Shown here piece after piece: positions 25,632 through 38,738 of a DNA stretch of 64,000 bases. The notes beneath the pieces were generated by a model. The model was given only the letters and a program-made list of their open reading frames with translations. It did not search any database and had not been told where the DNA came from. The stretch's first letter is position 1. Every line of letters starts with the position of its first letter. Origin of the DNA: Caldicellulosiruptor bescii DSM 6725 (GTDB lineage Bacteria > Bacillota > Thermoanaerobacteria > Caldicellulosiruptorales > Caldicellulosiruptoraceae); the NCBI RefSeq assembly GCF_000022325.1, contig NC_012034.1, positions 1-64,000 on the forward strand, written 5' to 3'. A program made the translations under genes and the position numbers.

Positions 25632-26405
25632 ATGAATAGGATAGTAGTAAGAGACATAGAAGACAAAAAAGGAAAAAGCACTATTACAAAGATTAGTACA
25701 TTGCAAAAAGCTGTAGTGTTAGTTGTTGCTGTAATTTTTACTTTCTTATTATTCAAGTACGCAAAAGAGGTAGTTAATAGGAATGAGCTAAATGTGGATG
25801 ATAGGATAAGGCCTATTACAAAAACATTAGTTTTTGGATTATCAATAGAACCTGGGTTTATAGGTAATGAACTTTTTGACTTTCCTACTGTGGGATGTTA
25901 TAGTTTGATTGCATTTATATGGCGGCACGTAACGGAAGATGACAAAATTACTCTTTCAGAAAATTTAATAGAATTGACCTCAAAAGAAAAACAGGCAATA
26001 GAAATGATGTTGAAAAAACTTAACTATATTTTATTGGAAAATCCAAAAGAAGCTTTTATGAGATGGATTAAATCAGAGAATATTAAAATGAACAGAAAAG
26101 AGTATAAATATGATATTTTAGAAGATTTTTGGGCATTTCATTTTTTAGATATGAATGTAATATTTATCGGAGTTAGTATTATAAGTTTTATTTTTTGGAC
26201 TACATATGCATTTTGCAATATGTTATTTTTAATTATAGTAACTATGGTAGAGTTTGTAATAAACTTGTGGGTAGTAATTTTGAAGAAAGAAGAAGGAGTA
26301 GAAGATGAAGAAGAAAGAGAGATATATGAGATGATAAAAGAAGAAGTAAGAAAAATAATTTATGATGGAAAAGAAGCAAGAAATTTAAGACAGGAAAGCA
26401 ATTAA
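25632..26405 (+). CDS. family B membrane protein, copy 2 (B2), unknown function
   Basis: A 257-residue paralogue of B1, with an N-terminal hydrophobic segment (about 20-40), the signature FWAFHFLDMNVIFIG, a C-terminal hydrophobic region, and an acidic tail (EEGVEDEEEREIYEMIKEE) like that of B1. A PKEAFMRWIKSENI block corresponds to PEENFMNWVKSKDI in B1 and PKEEFIKWTKFIE in the fusion. It begins 3 bases after A2, so it is co-translated with it. No C gene follows; instead there is a copy of the rhs tail and then an insertion sequence. Confidence 0.7.
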   Translation: MNRIVVRDIEDKKGKSTITKISTLQKAVVLVVAVIFTFLLFKYAKEVVNRNELNVDDRIRPITKTLVFGLSIEPGFIGNELFDFPTVGCYSLIAFIWRHVTEDDKITLSENLIELTSKEKQAIEMMLKKLNYILLENPKEAFMRWIKSENIKMNRKEYKYDILEDFWAFHFLDMNVIFIGVSIISFIFWTTYAFCNMLFLIIVTMVEFVINLWVVILKKEEGVEDEEEREIYEMIKEEVRKIIYDGKEARNLRQESN

Positions 26406-26564: not shown

Positions 26565-27690
26565 TCAAGAATTTTGTGTTTCCAATTTATAACGTAAGTT
26601 GTAAAGTTGGGTTATGTTATTGATGCATTTTCTAATACTGGGAACTCCATTTTTCCATTTTGTGCGGCGTAAATTCTCACGTTGTAAGTAAATATTAATT
26701 TCTAAAACATCAACAGACTGAAAATACCCACCTGAATTTACTCTGATTTTTTCAATTATACTGTTGATACTTTCAACAGCGTTTGTGGTGTAAATATGTT
26801 TTCTTAATTCTTCAGGATATTTCATATGGGCAAGATAGAACTCTGCTTTTTCGGATATTCCCTTAACGAAGCGGGGATATTTTACAAGGTATTCTTTACA
26901 AAGTTCTTTAAATTTCAATACAGCTTCGTCAAAATCGGAGGAAGAAATTCTAAGTCTGTCTAAACTCTTGTTAAAAGCTGAAGCATCTTCTTTTGTCATA
27001 TGTTTTCTGACATTACGTTGGAGGTGGACAAAACACAGTTGATGGTCAGCAAGAGGATAAGCAAGTTTGACAGCATCTATAATACCAGGGAAGTCATCAC
27101 TTATGACAATTAGAATCTCTTTTAGCCCTCTTGTAATTAAGTCTTCAAATACTTTCATCCAATCAGCTTTATTTTCTTTGCCGAAGAAAGTGTAGACACC
27201 GAAAATGTCTTTTTTACCTTCTAAATCGATACCGAGGACAACATAACAAGTAGCCTGTTTAACCTTAGAATTATCTTTGATTTCACAGTGGTAACCATCA
27301 ATAATAAGTGCGAAGGCACTTGAAGGTAATTCTCTTTGTTTGAATAATTGAAGTTCATTTTTGAGGTCTTCTTTGATTTTTAGGATTTTGCTTTTGGAAT
27401 AAGGAAGATTTAAGTTTTTCAATGTTTGAACAAGGGAATGCTCAAGAATAACCATTGACATACTTGCGACATAAGAAGGTCGGTGTACGAACTATCAACT
27501 CTTTTGTAGCGAAAAGAAGAGGATAGAAGGTCGGAAATTACCAGTACGTGTGCGAGGAACAGAGATTTCAAGACTGCCAACAGGTGTTGCAAGTTTTCTA
27601 TCGTAAAAACCATTGCCTTTGTCATTATCATTTTTAGCAAGGTACACTGATCTTTCCGATAACATAAAGCTATCGAGCAAGTTTTCTAAG
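26565..27690 (-). pseudogene. IS256-type (mutator) transposase, frameshifted
   Basis: The intact C-terminal part (27461 down to 26565) carries the DDE residues in IIDGYHCEI, ISDDFPGI and NAVESINS. Upstream the protein continues in two other frames: SFMLSERSVYLAKNDNDKG ... RTRTGNFRPSIL, then YKRVDSSYTDLLMSQV. At least two frameshifts therefore break it, and the first 70 or so residues are missing. A terminal-repeat-like GAGACTTGTCAAGAATTTTG lies just beyond the 3' end. It sits between B2 and the A-B fusion gene and is surely inactive. Confidence 0.88.
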
Positions 27691-30683: not shown

Positions 30684-31411
30684 TCAGGATACATTATCAA
30701 AAGCTGATTTAATATTATATCCCAATTTCTGTACCTCTGTTTTCAAGTCATTCAAAACACCCAACCAGAATTTAGAGCTTTCACTCTCTCCAATCCATAT
30801 CCCTAAAACATCCTTATATCCTTCAATGTTAACACTTAAAACAACATAGGCAGCTTTATTTACAATTTTACCCTCATCTTTTATCTTGTAATGAATCGCG
30901 TCCATGAAAATAAACGGATATATCTTTTCCAAAGGTCTATTTTGCCATTCTCTTATCTCAGAAATAATTTTCTCTGTAATTTTGCTAACCATTTCGCTAG
31001 ATATTTCGATACCATAAAATATCTTTAATTTGCTCATGAATGTCTCGTGTTGTCATTTCTACAGAAATACAGGGCTATAATTTTGTCTTCAATCTCTGAA
31101 ATATCTCTTTTGTACTTAGGAATTATCTTGGGTTCAAATTCGCCTTCTCTATCCCTTGGAATATCAAGTTCCATTTCACCAAACTTGGTTTTGACAGTCT
31201 TTTGACTATAACCGTTTCGTGAATTTGTTGTCTGCTTGTTTTTGACATCATATTTTTCGTAACCTAAACTTTCTTCAATTTCTGCTTCTAAAAAGCTTTG
31301 TAGTAAGTCTTTGAATAGATCCTTCAAGCTTTCATAAATGTCGCTTACACTCTGGATGTTATTTTTTCTTATGAATTCGAGTAATTGTTCTTTTGATAAA
31401 ACATTTTCCAT
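30684..31411 (-). pseudogene. IS256-family transposase, frameshifted and C-terminally deleted
   Basis: The N-terminal piece (31411 to 31034) has the family features SVSDIYESLKDLFKDLLQ, EESLGYEKYDVKNKQTTNSR and DIPRDREGEFEPKIIPKY. It shifts frame near 31035 into SEMVSKITEKIISEI and FIFMDAIHYKIKDEG, which holds the first catalytic aspartate. The chain stops at 30684, before the second aspartate and the glutamate. The gene is therefore inactive. It differs from the transposase at 26565-27690 and is a separate insertion. Confidence 0.88.
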
Positions 31412-31519: not shown

Positions 31520-33979
31520 TCATCTTTTTTTCCTAATTACGCCGACAACTTTTCCAACTATACGAAGTTCCCCTTCTTTGATGTTTATTGGCTCATATTT
31601 GCTGTTTTCGGGAATGAGCAGGACTGTGCTTCCCATTTTGCAAAATCTTTTCACAGTTATTTCACCGTCAAGCCATGCAATAACAATATCTCTGTTTTCC
31701 GCAGTATTGCATTTTTGCACAATTGCAATGTCTCCATCTTTTATATTTGCTTCCACCATACTATCGCCCTTAACTTTAATAGCAAAATATCTTTCAGGGT
31801 CAGAGATAATAGAAGTCGGCAGGGCAACCTTACCAATTGCCTCATCAGATGTTTCAACGGGTGTTCCTGCTGCAACCTTTTCATAAAGGTTTATCGTGAG
31901 CACATCTTCTGATTTTATCTCTATGAGATGTCCATCTTGAACTAAGTCAATATGTCCTGTGTCTACCAATTTTCTGAGTCTGTAAGTTTTTGACCTTCTG
32001 AAATCTACAACCTCATATTCTTCAATTTGAGAAGGAAGCATACTTATATCAAAGTGAGGAAAATCGTCAACAATTTCAAATCTGCTGTCAAATATTAAAA
32101 TGCTGTTTCCATCTGTTACAACTCCAAAAGAACATCTTGGAACCACATTCAAATAACTTTTCAGCTGCTCTGCCCCCTGACCTATTCCAGAAAGATATGG
32201 TTTTACCTCAAAAATGATAAATGGTACCTTTTCTTTATTTGAATCATACCTGAACACAACAACATCCACAAATGCAGGTTTTGAAAATACGTTTATCCTG
32301 TACTCAACATCAATCAACTCTTCAGGGTATTTATAAGTTTCAATAAGTTCATTTATAAGCCACTGGCGAACCTCTTCTTCTTTGCAGTAGATATCCCTGA
32401 TTTTGTTTATGTATCTGTAATCATCAATCCTCAGCTTGTAAAAACTGCGAAGATTGCATTTAGAATCAATTCGAAGAAGTTTTGTATTAAGCTCGCTCAA
32501 AAATTTTGATGGTTTTCTTGAGCAGCACAAATACAGCCTTTCGTTTGCTCTTGTCATACCAACGTAAAAGAGCTTTTTGTCAGTTGTCTCTTGCAGCTTT
32601 GCAACCTCATTGTCTTCGCATGATGAGTATGGAATGATGTTGCTATTAAGTCCAATGATAAAAACCACTTTGAATTCCAAACCTTTTATAGAGTGCATGG
32701 TGATAAGCCTTATACCCTCTTCTTCAAAGTTTTCACCCGAATCTGAGTTTAAAAATATGGCTTTCAGCCCTTTTGAAGAGACATAATTGTAAAAAGACTC
32801 CAAATATTTTCTATTTTTACAAATCACTGCAATATCTTTTAGTTGAAATTCAAATGCTAAGTTGTTCACAATTTCATTGTAGACAAACTCTGCTTCTTGT
32901 TCTTCGGTTTGGAAAATCTTTAGTACAGGCAAAGGTCCTTGCTTGTCTATTAAAGCAGGTTTTACAAAATTTTCATCTTCTATTATTTCTGGTGTCTTTT
33001 CTATTAAGCTATATGCAAGATTTGCAATCTGGACAGTTGTCCTGTAGTTTTTAGACAGCGTATAGCTTTTTCCTGTCATGTCAAATCCAATGCTTGCAAA
33101 CGACCTTCCCCTGATAAGCCATGAGTGTGTGTAAATGCTCTGGGCTGTGTCTGCAATAAACATTATGCTGGAATAGCTTTTTTCGGAGTTATAAAGAAGC
33201 TTTAAAATTTCTAATTGAACTTTTGTGAGGTCTTGACTTTCATCTATTATAATGTGCGTATATTTTGTAATCTTGTGTTCGTTTGCTTTCAAATAATCCA
33301 GTACAATCAAAGCCATGTCTTTAAAATCGACAAGTCCATTTTCTTTTAAAAGCGAGGTATAAAGCTGCATAAGTTCAAATATAGCTTTTCTTGTTTCTGA
33401 ATTCTTTGCTATCTTCTGAGGTATGTCTTTCTGATTTTGAACTGTTCTACCTATCCTATCAGTGCTCTGATATTCCTCTAATTCTCTTATATTACATGAT
33501 TTTATCCACTCAATCTCATCTAAAAGAAAATTGGCAAAAGAAAGGTCTATATATTGAACCTTTGGGTATTTTTCTTTGATCTTAACAATTGCCTGATTGA
33601 GAAAATTATATTTTGTAGCCTTGTTGTTGACAATCTCAAGTTTTTCGCCAGAATATTCTTTGTATTCCTGGAAAAATCCATAGATTATGCTGTCAATTGA
33701 AGCTATCTTAACCTTATCCTTGTTGTCATTTACCAGAGCATCAAATGAAATATATGCATCTTCCAACTTGTTATAGAGGTATTTCAAATAATTTACCAGA
33801 GTTTTGTTAAAAGTTACCATTAGAATTTTGTCATCGGGCGCAAAGCAATATTCATTTAGAAGATAAACTACTCTGTATATTGCAACTGTTGTTTTTCCAG
33901 AACCTGCAACACCTTTTACCAGCATATGCCCATTTGGTTTTGCCTGAGACAGTTTCTTCTGCTCAATGTTCAAATTCAC
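31520..33979 (-). CDS. UvrD-like helicase / HSDR_N-type nuclease / LexA-like S24 peptidase fusion
   Basis: An 819-residue three-part protein. Residues about 1-535 are a superfamily 1 helicase: Walker A GVAGSGKTT (23-31), Walker B IIDESQDLTK, TMHSIKGLEFKVVFI, and motif VI YVGMTRANERLYL. Residues about 542-632 resemble the type I restriction HSDR_N domain, a PD-(D/E)XK fold, with VDVVVF (D572) and FEVK (591-593). The C terminus is a LexA/UmuD-like S24 domain with a cleavage-site-like VAAGTPV (A704-G705), nucleophile Ser in GDSM (740) and Lys in TVKRF (777). The Ser-Lys gap of 37 equals that of E. coli LexA. GTG 33979, after GGGGGT and downstream of a good promoter, is preferred to the frame opening at 34054. 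It may be a damage- or phage-triggered DNA-processing enzyme; the function is inferred. Confidence 0.85.
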   Translation of the reverse strand: MNLNIEQKKLSQAKPNGHMLVKGVAGSGKTTVAIYRVVYLLNEYCFAPDDKILMVTFNKTLVNYLKYLYNKLEDAYISFDALVNDNKDKVKIASIDSIIYGFFQEYKEYSGEKLEIVNNKATKYNFLNQAIVKIKEKYPKVQYIDLSFANFLLDEIEWIKSCNIRELEEYQSTDRIGRTVQNQKDIPQKIAKNSETRKAIFELMQLYTSLLKENGLVDFKDMALIVLDYLKANEHKITKYTHIIIDESQDLTKVQLEILKLLYNSEKSYSSIMFIADTAQSIYTHSWLIRGRSFASIGFDMTGKSYTLSKNYRTTVQIANLAYSLIEKTPEIIEDENFVKPALIDKQGPLPVLKIFQTEEQEAEFVYNEIVNNLAFEFQLKDIAVICKNRKYLESFYNYVSSKGLKAIFLNSDSGENFEEEGIRLITMHSIKGLEFKVVFIIGLNSNIIPYSSCEDNEVAKLQETTDKKLFYVGMTRANERLYLCCSRKPSKFLSELNTKLLRIDSKCNLRSFYKLRIDDYRYINKIRDIYCKEEEVRQWLINELIETYKYPEELIDVEYRINVFSKPAFVDVVVFRYDSNKEKVPFIIFEVKPYLSGIGQGAEQLKSYLNVVPRCSFGVVTDGNSILIFDSRFEIVDDFPHFDISMLPSQIEEYEVVDFRRSKTYRLRKLVDTGHIDLVQDGHLIEIKSEDVLTINLYEKVAAGTPVETSDEAIGKVALPTSIISDPERYFAIKVKGDSMVEANIKDGDIAIVQKCNTAENRDIVIAWLDGEITVKRFCKMGSTVLLIPENSKYEPINIKEGELRIVGKVVGVIRKKR

Positions 33980-34025
33980 CAAGATTACCCCCACACAAAA
34001 ACAAACGTTTTTTATTTTTGATATT

Positions 34026-34054
34026 ATTATAAACCAATTTTGTATTCTTTGCAA
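34026..34054 (-). promoter_or_regulatory. promoter of the helicase-S24 fusion gene
   Basis: On the minus strand, TTGCAA (34054-34049), a 17-base spacer and TATAAT (34031-34026). The implied transcript start near 34018 excludes the ATG at 34054 and supports GTG 33979. No clear Gram-positive LexA operator was found. Confidence 0.6.
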
Positions 34055-36825: not shown

Positions 36826-36858
36826 GAAAGGGCTGCTCAATATATGAGCAGCCCTTTC
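36826..36858. terminator. strong hairpin at the end of the minus-strand nuclease gene
   Basis: A perfect 14-bp stem, GAAAGGGCTGCTCA (36826-36839) with TGAGCAGCCCTTTC (36845-36858), loop ATATA. It touches the stop codon of the minus-strand gene. The T tracts are weak on both sides. Confidence 0.65.
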
Positions 36859-37453
36859 AGTTTGGAAACAATTTGCGTTTTCTAAAAACGTCTAAACGCT
36901 GTTGAAATTCATGTTCAGACCAAACAAAAATTTTATCAAAAAGTTTGCTCTTTAATATGTAGTCTGTATTTAAAGTTAATGATTTTTTATCAGAGTTTAA
37001 TTGTGATTTTTTCTTTATATGAGCGTGAACAGAAAAATTTTTACTATATAAAATGTGTTTTTCTGAGTTATATACGATTATAAAACATTTGTTTAAATTC
37101 CATATATCTCTAAAAGTAACATTAATTTTAAGCCGATTAGAAATAATTTCAGGAATAACAAATAATATACTTTCATATAATTGTAATTTCAGACGATGTT
37201 TTTCATTATCATTGATTTCTCCACTTTTAAACTCTATGATAACTAATCCTAATTCTTTATCGAACCATAACCCATCTGCCACACAACAGCCTATTTTTGT
37301 TATCTCCGACTGAATTTTTTCTAAATTAATAACAAGAAAATTCGTATCATTGCACAGAACAGTTTTTTGTTTACTTTTACTTATTGTGGCTAAATGAGTA
37401 AAAAAGTTAGATTTAATTTGAGAAAAAGCTTCAATACATTTTTCAATTTCCAT
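36857..37453 (-). CDS. putative PD-(D/E)XK nuclease, partner of an ATPase
   Basis: A 198-residue protein that I do not assign to a named family. Residues 60-91 read D60-GLWF, LGLVIIEFKSG (E74-x-K76) and KLQLYES (Q91), which fits the PD-(D/E)XK nuclease core (D...ExK...Q). Its ATG at 37453 lies inside the end of the upstream ATPase gene (11-base overlap), so the two are translated together. The pairing resembles two-gene antiphage systems that combine a RecF/OLD-like ATPase with a nuclease. Function is inferred from motif and neighbour. Confidence 0.6.
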   Translation of the reverse strand: MEIEKCIEAFSQIKSNFFTHLATISKSKQKTVLCNDTNFLVINLEKIQSEITKIGCCVADGLWFDKELGLVIIEFKSGEINDNEKHRLKLQLYESILFVIPEIISNRLKINVTFRDIWNLNKCFIIVYNSEKHILYSKNFSVHAHIKKKSQLNSDKKSLTLNTDYILKSKLFDKIFVWSEHEFQQRLDVFRKRKLFPN

Positions 37454-38738
37454 TCATCATATCCCTCTCTCTTATTTCTTCTAATTTATCAAAAGGGAAT
37501 GAAAGAAGTTCATAAACTTTTTCTAATTGTTGATTTACATTTTCAAAAACTACAAAGTGCGGTTCTTTCTTTGTTGCTAAATAAAAATTTGTCTTATGTT
37601 CAATTTTATAATGTTCACTAAAAACTTCAATAGCTTCAATAAAATATGGGCTATGGGAAATTAACAAAATGTTAGCTTCTAATTCTTTGACGAATAATGT
37701 TAAAAGTTCTGCGCAGTCTAACTGCCATTTAGGATGCAGATGAGTTTCAGGTTCATCGATTATTAATAGAGATTCTCTTGATATATAGCCATTTTCATAT
37801 AACAATCTTAGAACTATGAATACTTTTAAACCAGATGCCAAGTTTTCTATTTTTATATTTTTCCCATTGATATTATATTCCAAAATTTTACCATCAATTT
37901 TCTTGACAATGTTTCCTGTAAGAACATTTCTAAAAATGTTCTCAATAGGTTCTAGATTATGTTTCTTTGTATTCAAATATAAGCCTAAGATATTCTCATT
38001 TGGTATTTTAAAAAAAATTTTCGATTTTAAATTATTTCCATGAGTACTAAAATCAAAAGGATCGAAAGGAAAAATATCAATAGCTAAAGGAAAAGCATCT
38101 ATAGCTAAATCTAAAAAAGTAGCATCTTTGAAAGATAAAAAATCATTAATAAAACATTCTGATATTGAATTTTCAACAATACTGATAAATGCTTCGTTTT
38201 CATCTTCTTGACAAATAATTATTTGTGCAGGTTTTTCAAAAAAAAGATTATTTATCTGTCCGTAAAATTCTCTATTTAAAATCTTGTCAAGAGCAAATTT
38301 TTTAAGAGTTTCTTTATCTTCTAATAAGTTAATTTTTTCTATTGCTTGATTGATATATTTCACAATTTCTTTTTCTAAGTTTTTGTCAATGCCATTTGAA
38401 TTTTCTACTGCATTTTTTAATTCCATGAGCCATGAAAGTAATTCATTGTTTTTTCCGAAGGCAAGAAAATCATCAAGAATTAGATTTCTAAATTTTCTTT
38501 CAAAAGGAATTTTAACCATCCTTATTAATTTAAATATTCTTATCAAGTCATCTCTAAATATTTGTACTTTATATTTTTCCATGTTTTTCATAAAATCATT
38601 AAAGCCAAAATAAATAGTAAATAAAATTTTACCAATTGTAGTTTTCCCAGTGTCATTTTCGCCTGTTAACACGGTTAGTCCGTTTAACTTTATATTAGCA
38701 GTTTCAATAATTCCTACGTTTTTTACTGATAATTCCAT
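37443..38738 (-). CDS. RecF/OLD-like AAA ATPase, partner of the small nuclease
   Basis: A 431-residue SMC/ABC-type ATPase. Walker A GENDTGKTT is at about 26-34, Walker B is in LLIIDEPETHLHPKW, and the switch histidine is in LLISHSPYFIEA near the C terminus. A long insert of about 250 residues separates the halves. There is no TOPRIM nuclease domain, unlike OLD or Gabija GajA. The start at ATG 38738 follows TGAGGTG and a well-formed promoter. It is the first gene of a two-gene operon with the nuclease-like protein. Confidence 0.8.
   Translation of the reverse strand: MELSVKNVGIIETANIKLNGLTVLTGENDTGKTTIGKILFTIYFGFNDFMKNMEKYKVQIFRDDLIRIFKLIRMVKIPFERKFRNLILDDFLAFGKNNELLSWLMELKNAVENSNGIDKNLEKEIVKYINQAIEKINLLEDKETLKKFALDKILNREFYGQINNLFFEKPAQIIICQEDENEAFISIVENSISECFINDFLSFKDATFLDLAIDAFPLAIDIFPFDPFDFSTHGNNLKSKIFFKIPNENILGLYLNTKKHNLEPIENIFRNVLTGNIVKKIDGKILEYNINGKNIKIENLASGLKVFIVLRLLYENGYISRESLLIIDEPETHLHPKWQLDCAELLTLFVKELEANILLISHSPYFIEAIEVFSEHYKIEHKTNFYLATKKEPHFVVFENVNQQLEKVYELLSFPFDKLEEIRERDMMNGN

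Follow-up and report, generated by a model that had tools for sequence, protein, structure and literature searches.

The gene at 31520..33979 on the reverse strand of the window (the whole stretch of 64,000 nucleotides of Caldicellulosiruptor bescii DSM 6725 DNA that was analysed) encodes a protein of 819 amino acids in which a helicase, an HsdR-type nuclease, a beta-rich linker and a LexA-type S24 domain follow one another in a single chain. Both this architecture and the conservation of its catalytic residues are established, and our literature searches found no description of a helicase + HSDR_N + S24 combination. The best reading of the sequence is a LexA-type switch placed on a helicase-nuclease, and the protein is probably an enzyme of DNA processing or antiviral defence, one that would destroy itself upon a damage signal.

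The reading frame opens with a GTG start at 33979, preceded about 9 bases upstream by a GGGGG Shine-Dalgarno sequence, and closes with the stop at 31520. The Pfam models UvrD-helicase (residues 3-284, 8.6e-29), UvrD_C (1.6e-25), HSDR_N_2 (residues 533-641, 2.1e-22) and Peptidase_S24 (residues 698-812, 7e-31) all match above their gathering scores. This bears out the original prediction that one chain joins an SF1 helicase, an HSDR_N domain and an S24 domain; its coordinates, strand and residue numbering were likewise correct. Homologues form a family of 43 full-length members from independent genomes (Clostridia, Bacilli, Desulfosarcina and Fusobacteriota; ~36-96% identity, mostly 36-52%), each with all four Pfam domains. 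Conservation counts given below were taken from the alignment of these 43 rows (A3). An AlphaFold2 model built with the same alignment has a mean pLDDT of 86.6 and falls below 50 at only two segments, 179-185 and, at the predicted cleavage site, 704-711. Broken copies do occur, in genomes G005 and G011, but the recurrence of one set of domains and active sites in 43 independent full-length homologues rules out a chance fusion, a pseudogene or an assembly artefact; given this family and the confident model, the probability of such an origin is negligible.

The motor occupies residues 1-495 (32495..33979; this and all further features of the gene lie on the reverse strand) and was assigned to the UvrD/Rep-type SF1A helicases by Pfam, NCBIfam and Foldseek. 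All motifs of a UvrD-like SF1A core (Walker A, DExQD and III-VI) are present and invariant in the full-length architecture, hereafter the long form. Walker A (GVAGSGKTT, residues 23-31, 33887..33913) is invariant or nearly so across the 43 members, its lysine strictly so, and in motif II (DESQD, residues 246-250, 33230..33244) D246, E247, Q249 and D250 are found in 43/43. Structural comparison of the motor part gave UvrD, PcrA and Rep as best matches, followed by AddA and RecB. Unlike UvrD, PcrA and Rep, with which it shares the SF1A core motifs, the 819-residue protein has no 2B subdomain (the profiles skip ~150-180 positions between residues 388 and 410) and carries an added nuclease and S24 domain.

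The PD-(D/E)XK-like HSDR_N domain of the original prediction was recovered as an HSDR_N_2 nuclease at residues 533-641 (32057..32383), together with the D, ExK and QxxxY residues typical of HsdR. Its core is modelled as alpha-beta-beta-beta-alpha-beta, with D572, E591-x-K593 and Q605xxxY609 (32153..32266) in the expected elements. D572, K593 and Q605 are invariant, and E591 is replaced by valine in a single member (L064). Type I restriction R subunits share this HSDR_N_2 domain and its D, ExK and QxxxY residues, but the motor here belongs to SF1 and is no SF2 translocase. Pfam scans of nearby window genes found neither HsdM nor HsdS, and membership in a type I restriction system was rejected on both grounds.

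A linker of variable sequence (residues 642-697, 31889..32056; modelled strands at 652-699) leads from the nuclease to the S24 domain (residues 698-812, 31544..31888), which was identified by Pfam, by the NCBIfam LexA model and by PDB matches. It exceeds the cut-off of the NCBI LexA equivalog (117.1 vs 110.95 bits) and stays under that of the UmuD model (87.8 vs 110); its sequence matches in the PDB are LexA and UmuD entries, among them 8gms, 8trg and 8gmt. The Ala-Gly site, the Ser-Lys pair and the spacings claimed in the original prediction were all correct on checking. The predicted self-cleavage site A704-G705 (31865..31870; context EKVAA/GTP, cut after the second A) is Ala-Gly in 42 of the 43 members, at LexA spacing, and the catalytic Ser740 (in GDSM, 31760..31762) and Lys777 (in TVKR, 31649..31651) are invariant, so that not one homologue lacks either residue. 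The Gly-Ser distance is 35 residues here and 34 in the LexA of the host (L002), and the Ser-Lys distance is 37 in both. Sequence comparison thus supports a complete LexA-type Ser-Lys self-cleavage domain joined to a helicase and an HsdR-type nuclease. With LexA the domain shares a VAAG site, the dyad, the 37-residue spacing and a passing score for the NCBI model; in contrast to LexA its cargo is a helicase-nuclease, the host encodes LexA separately, and the N-terminal winged-helix DNA-binding domain was absent in Pfam scans of all 43 members. UmuD is a parallel in that a self-cleaving S24 domain is used to control a non-repressor. However, it is a small, free-standing subunit of a polymerase, whereas the S24 domain here is fused to an 80-kDa enzyme and its P2-P1 residues are LexA-like. 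A chain of 819 residues with helicase and nuclease, scoring below the UmuD cut-off, is not UmuD.

C. bescii carries a single copy of the gene. Within its own genus the long form is an accessory gene: it is intact in 4 of 12 genomes, near the start of the chromosome record, and broken in two further copies. The copy in G005 is broken, and in G011 only a C-terminal remnant of HSDR_N and S24 (L012, 1501-2953, a 351-codon frame) is found, at another place. The head-to-head neighbour of this remnant is a yneA-like LysM gene carrying a good LexA box, ATAAACATTTGTTTGAT. Phylum-wide, ~17 of 398 sampled genomes (~4%) have the long form, some of them as broken copies, and a scan of GTDB genomes located ~45 loci, mainly in Clostridia and Bacilli, with others in Desulfosarcina (L077) and in a Fusobacteriia MAG (L091). 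The Fusobacteriota members, L091 and a megaplasmid copy of Ilyobacter polytropus (L171), keep the Ser and Lys and have lost the Ala-Gly site, which indicates that long forms lacking canonical cleavage can exist. Neither the L091 genome nor the Ilyobacter plasmid gave a canonical LexA that scored over the model cut-off. A query with the nuclease region found no viral copy in IMG/VR, and phage records gave no match covering 80% of the 819-residue protein.

Gene neighbourhoods lend circumstantial support to a phage-defence setting of the long form. Neighbours include retron RTs (L079, L090), SIR2 proteins (L057, L072), a TIR-SLOG protein (L073), PDC-S06 (L069) and a GmrSD/HEC-06 type protein (L060); an AbiO/Nhi gene overlaps the start of the long form in L095, and a type IV PLD-DUF3427 helicase lies close to several members. 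PADLOC families matched at 1e-30 amounted to 105 for 142 near neighbours and 28 for 142 control ORFs, the control being a small set, without one-to-one matching, of 14 arbitrary stretches from eight genomes that have the family or are closely related. The control matches were mainly to a kinase-type model and to sigma-54 regulators, one protein each. Several members are situated among ordinary genes, most are solitary, and no general conserved operon partner was found across the members' loci. In two loci an HRDC-NERD gene lies directly 5' of the long form (L057, 7430-8500; L063, 1610-2752, where the two overlap) and is a possible partner nuclease. Recurrent neighbours in L053, L060, L062, L065, L079 and L010, in varying order, are a PLDc-DEAD-DUF3427 helicase (PADLOC type IV REase), a MutT NUDIX protein, HNH_4 and a MazG-like protein.

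PADLOC GajB models match the helicase part of the C. bescii protein, which resembles Gabija GajB and the NERD-UvrD defence helicases in being a UvrD-type helicase found in defence islands. GajB, in contrast, has no S24 domain and works with a separate OLD-type GajA. Membership in Gabija was rejected since no GajA (OLD ATPase-TOPRIM) is adjacent to the gene; 3-5 kb off lies an AAA pair that is not adjacent either and is matched better by families other than GajA. At 36857-38738 of the window, on the reverse strand, an AAA_21/OLD-like ATPase overlaps a 198-aa partner that has no Pfam match, and PADLOC matches to HEC-02A, NsnB and PD-T4-4_A make a two-gene defence unit possible. On the 3' side of the helicase-nuclease gene lies a broken Mutator-family insertion sequence, with a further transposase nearby; the intervals concerned are 30684-31411 and 26565-27461 (reverse strand).

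Between a TATAAT -10 element (34026-34031) and the ribosome-binding site of the gene lies a candidate LexA operator, AAAC-GTTT-GTTT (33999..34010). Its core equals that of the host lexA, recA and uvrB boxes and its flanks differ. Host boxes (lexA, recA, uvrB and a yneA-like gene) follow approximately CTAAAC-N4-GTTYGAA, and a host-specific LexA matrix gave 3.5 for this site as compared with 11.8-16.6 for true boxes and 10.8 for the G004 copy. No convincing LexA box of the Firmicutes type GAAC-N4-GTTC was found 5' of family members. The sequence AAACNNNNGTTT occurs in 8 copies in the 64-kb window, where 2.7 are expected and 0 of 100 shuffles reach 8; the copies are at 25822, 28823, 33999, 37083 and other positions, several of them within genes.

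The direction of the switch had been left open by the original prediction; the Val/Ile-Ala-Ala ends point to OFF. At P3-P1 the scissile bond is preceded by IAA in 21 and by VAA in 16 long forms, i.e. by [IV]AA in 37 of 43, whereas the LexA proteins of related hosts have VTA or ITA, mostly VTA, at the same positions in 19 of 21 (Fisher p ~3e-9, the rows being related and not independent). ClpXP of C. thermocellum degrades fragments ending in VAA and IAA (PMC12203970), and after cleavage of LexA the N-terminal fragment is cleared by ClpXP (PMC10584840). Since VAA and IAA are ClpXP degrons in C. thermocellum, a cleaved helicase-nuclease should be targeted for degradation, and the [IV]AA ends would thereby favour an OFF switch over activation of the UmuD type. 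The same ends could alternatively reflect a preference of the peptidase instead of a degron.

From these features we infer a mechanism that takes in dimerisation, RecA docking, cleavage and ClpXP destruction, along with the polarity of the nuclease and an anti-phage role of the long form. The intact protein would pair via its S24 domain, as LexA does, and bind DNA ends, forks or single-stranded DNA of invading or damaged DNA, where the 2B-less motor would translocate and the HsdR-type nuclease would cut. RecA filaments would form on single-stranded DNA exposed by the enzyme's own activity or by other damage, the S24 domain would dock on such a filament, and A704-G705 would be cut. The freed helicase-nuclease (1-704), ending in Val-Ala-Ala, would be recognised by ClpX and destroyed, and the nuclease would be halted before the host chromosome is ruined. 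We put forward tentatively, as our leading hypothesis, that the gene encodes a DNA helicase and nuclease in one protein, the lifetime of which depends on a LexA-type self-cleaving domain acting mainly as a damage-triggered OFF switch. In favour of this stand the near-complete conservation of Ala-Gly, Ser and Lys, the LexA-level profile score and the model, where just two segments are disordered and the cleavage loop is one of them.

UmuD is a precedent for activation by self-cleavage, and an ON switch of this type, in which S24 keeps the helicase-nuclease inactive until RecA filaments trigger the release of an active 1-704 effector with an abortive or anti-phage function, would suit the neighbours in defence islands and the missing 2B subdomain, which leaves space for another autoinhibitor. 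It would also leave the freed enzyme with a VAA or IAA end, shown to act as a ClpXP degron in a Clostridium and therefore something that an activated product should avoid, while the LexA of related hosts mostly ends in VTA. We thus rank OFF before ON with moderate confidence and consider activation unlikely, if still a serious contender. S24 domains of LexA and UmuD pair and bind RecA filaments, and the domain might therefore serve mainly for dimerisation or for bringing the helicase-nuclease to RecA-coated single-stranded DNA, self-cleavage being incidental or a means of filament release only. The presence of 8gms, 8trg and 8gmt among the S24 matches and the two Fusobacteriota members with Ser and Lys but without Ala-Gly fit such a role; pure docking, however, would not preserve a scissile bond, and almost every member and all short forms (see below) have Ala-Gly, Ser and Lys unchanged, which renders this reading rather improbable. 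No better placed is a housekeeping recombination or repair enzyme, an AddAB/RecBCD-like back-up and no defence protein. The motor's structural likeness to UvrD, AddA and RecB, and the ordinary genes around some long forms and around the short form, speak for it, but the patchy presence in the phylum and in the genus, with its broken copies, and the retron, SIR2 and TIR neighbours speak against it. Defence is ranked before routine repair with moderate confidence.

The long form has a short paralogue of ~475-553 aa (L191, L192-L198, L048, L210-L226). In C. magnum (L191, a 531-codon frame) and in G383 (L048) helicase domain 1 runs straight into linker and S24, with motifs IV-VI and the nuclease missing. 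Among 147 Clostridiaceae genomes the short form is present in at least 75, the long form in at least 22 and both in ~15. The Walker lysine and the first Asp of motif II are kept and the catalytic Glu is often lost (Lys in 11/23), whereas IAAG, Ser and Lys are kept in all short forms. Mean identity in the short form is 69% for S24 and 49% for the helicase part, with S24 more conserved in every pair, as compared with 47% and 49% in the long form. That the short form retains its S24 domain while the helicase decays suggests that the S24 module is the selected part. Quick trees of both parts place the short form as one clade within the long forms and LexA in a separate clade. The short form folds in modelling, with linker and cleavage loop disordered, and in one genus its gene is followed on the 3' side by clpS and then clpA in 7 of 7 genomes. 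S24 self-cleavage in textbook SOS biology controls repressors and one polymerase subunit. These hosts, to which the original prediction had limited known S24 domains, stand, but the statement has to be amended because a second S24 fusion, the short form with its dead helicase, is common in Clostridiaceae. Possibly, though on the doubtful side, the two make up a family of LexA-switched enzymes, the long helicase-nuclease being lost through RecA-triggered self-cleavage and Clp proteolysis, and the short helicase-S24, ATP-binding and hydrolysis-dead, either pairing with it or acting alone as a Clp-coupled damage sensor.

With an S24 switch inside a DNA-degrading motor, a damage signal would control a nuclease directly and post-translationally. 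If the switch turns the enzyme OFF, this would explain why a strong, unspecific helicase-nuclease is not lethal to the cell that carries it; if it turns it ON, the protein would be a RecA-gated effector. A LexA-switched family of two members would, if true, add to LexA, CI and UmuD a further class of post-translational SOS output. The wide occurrence of the short form suggests a whole overlooked branch of LexA-like control in Clostridiaceae: with the NCBI LexA model the long forms tested exceed the cut-off, the short forms tested narrowly miss it, and the Ilyobacter plasmid copy is annotated merely as 'S24 family peptidase'.
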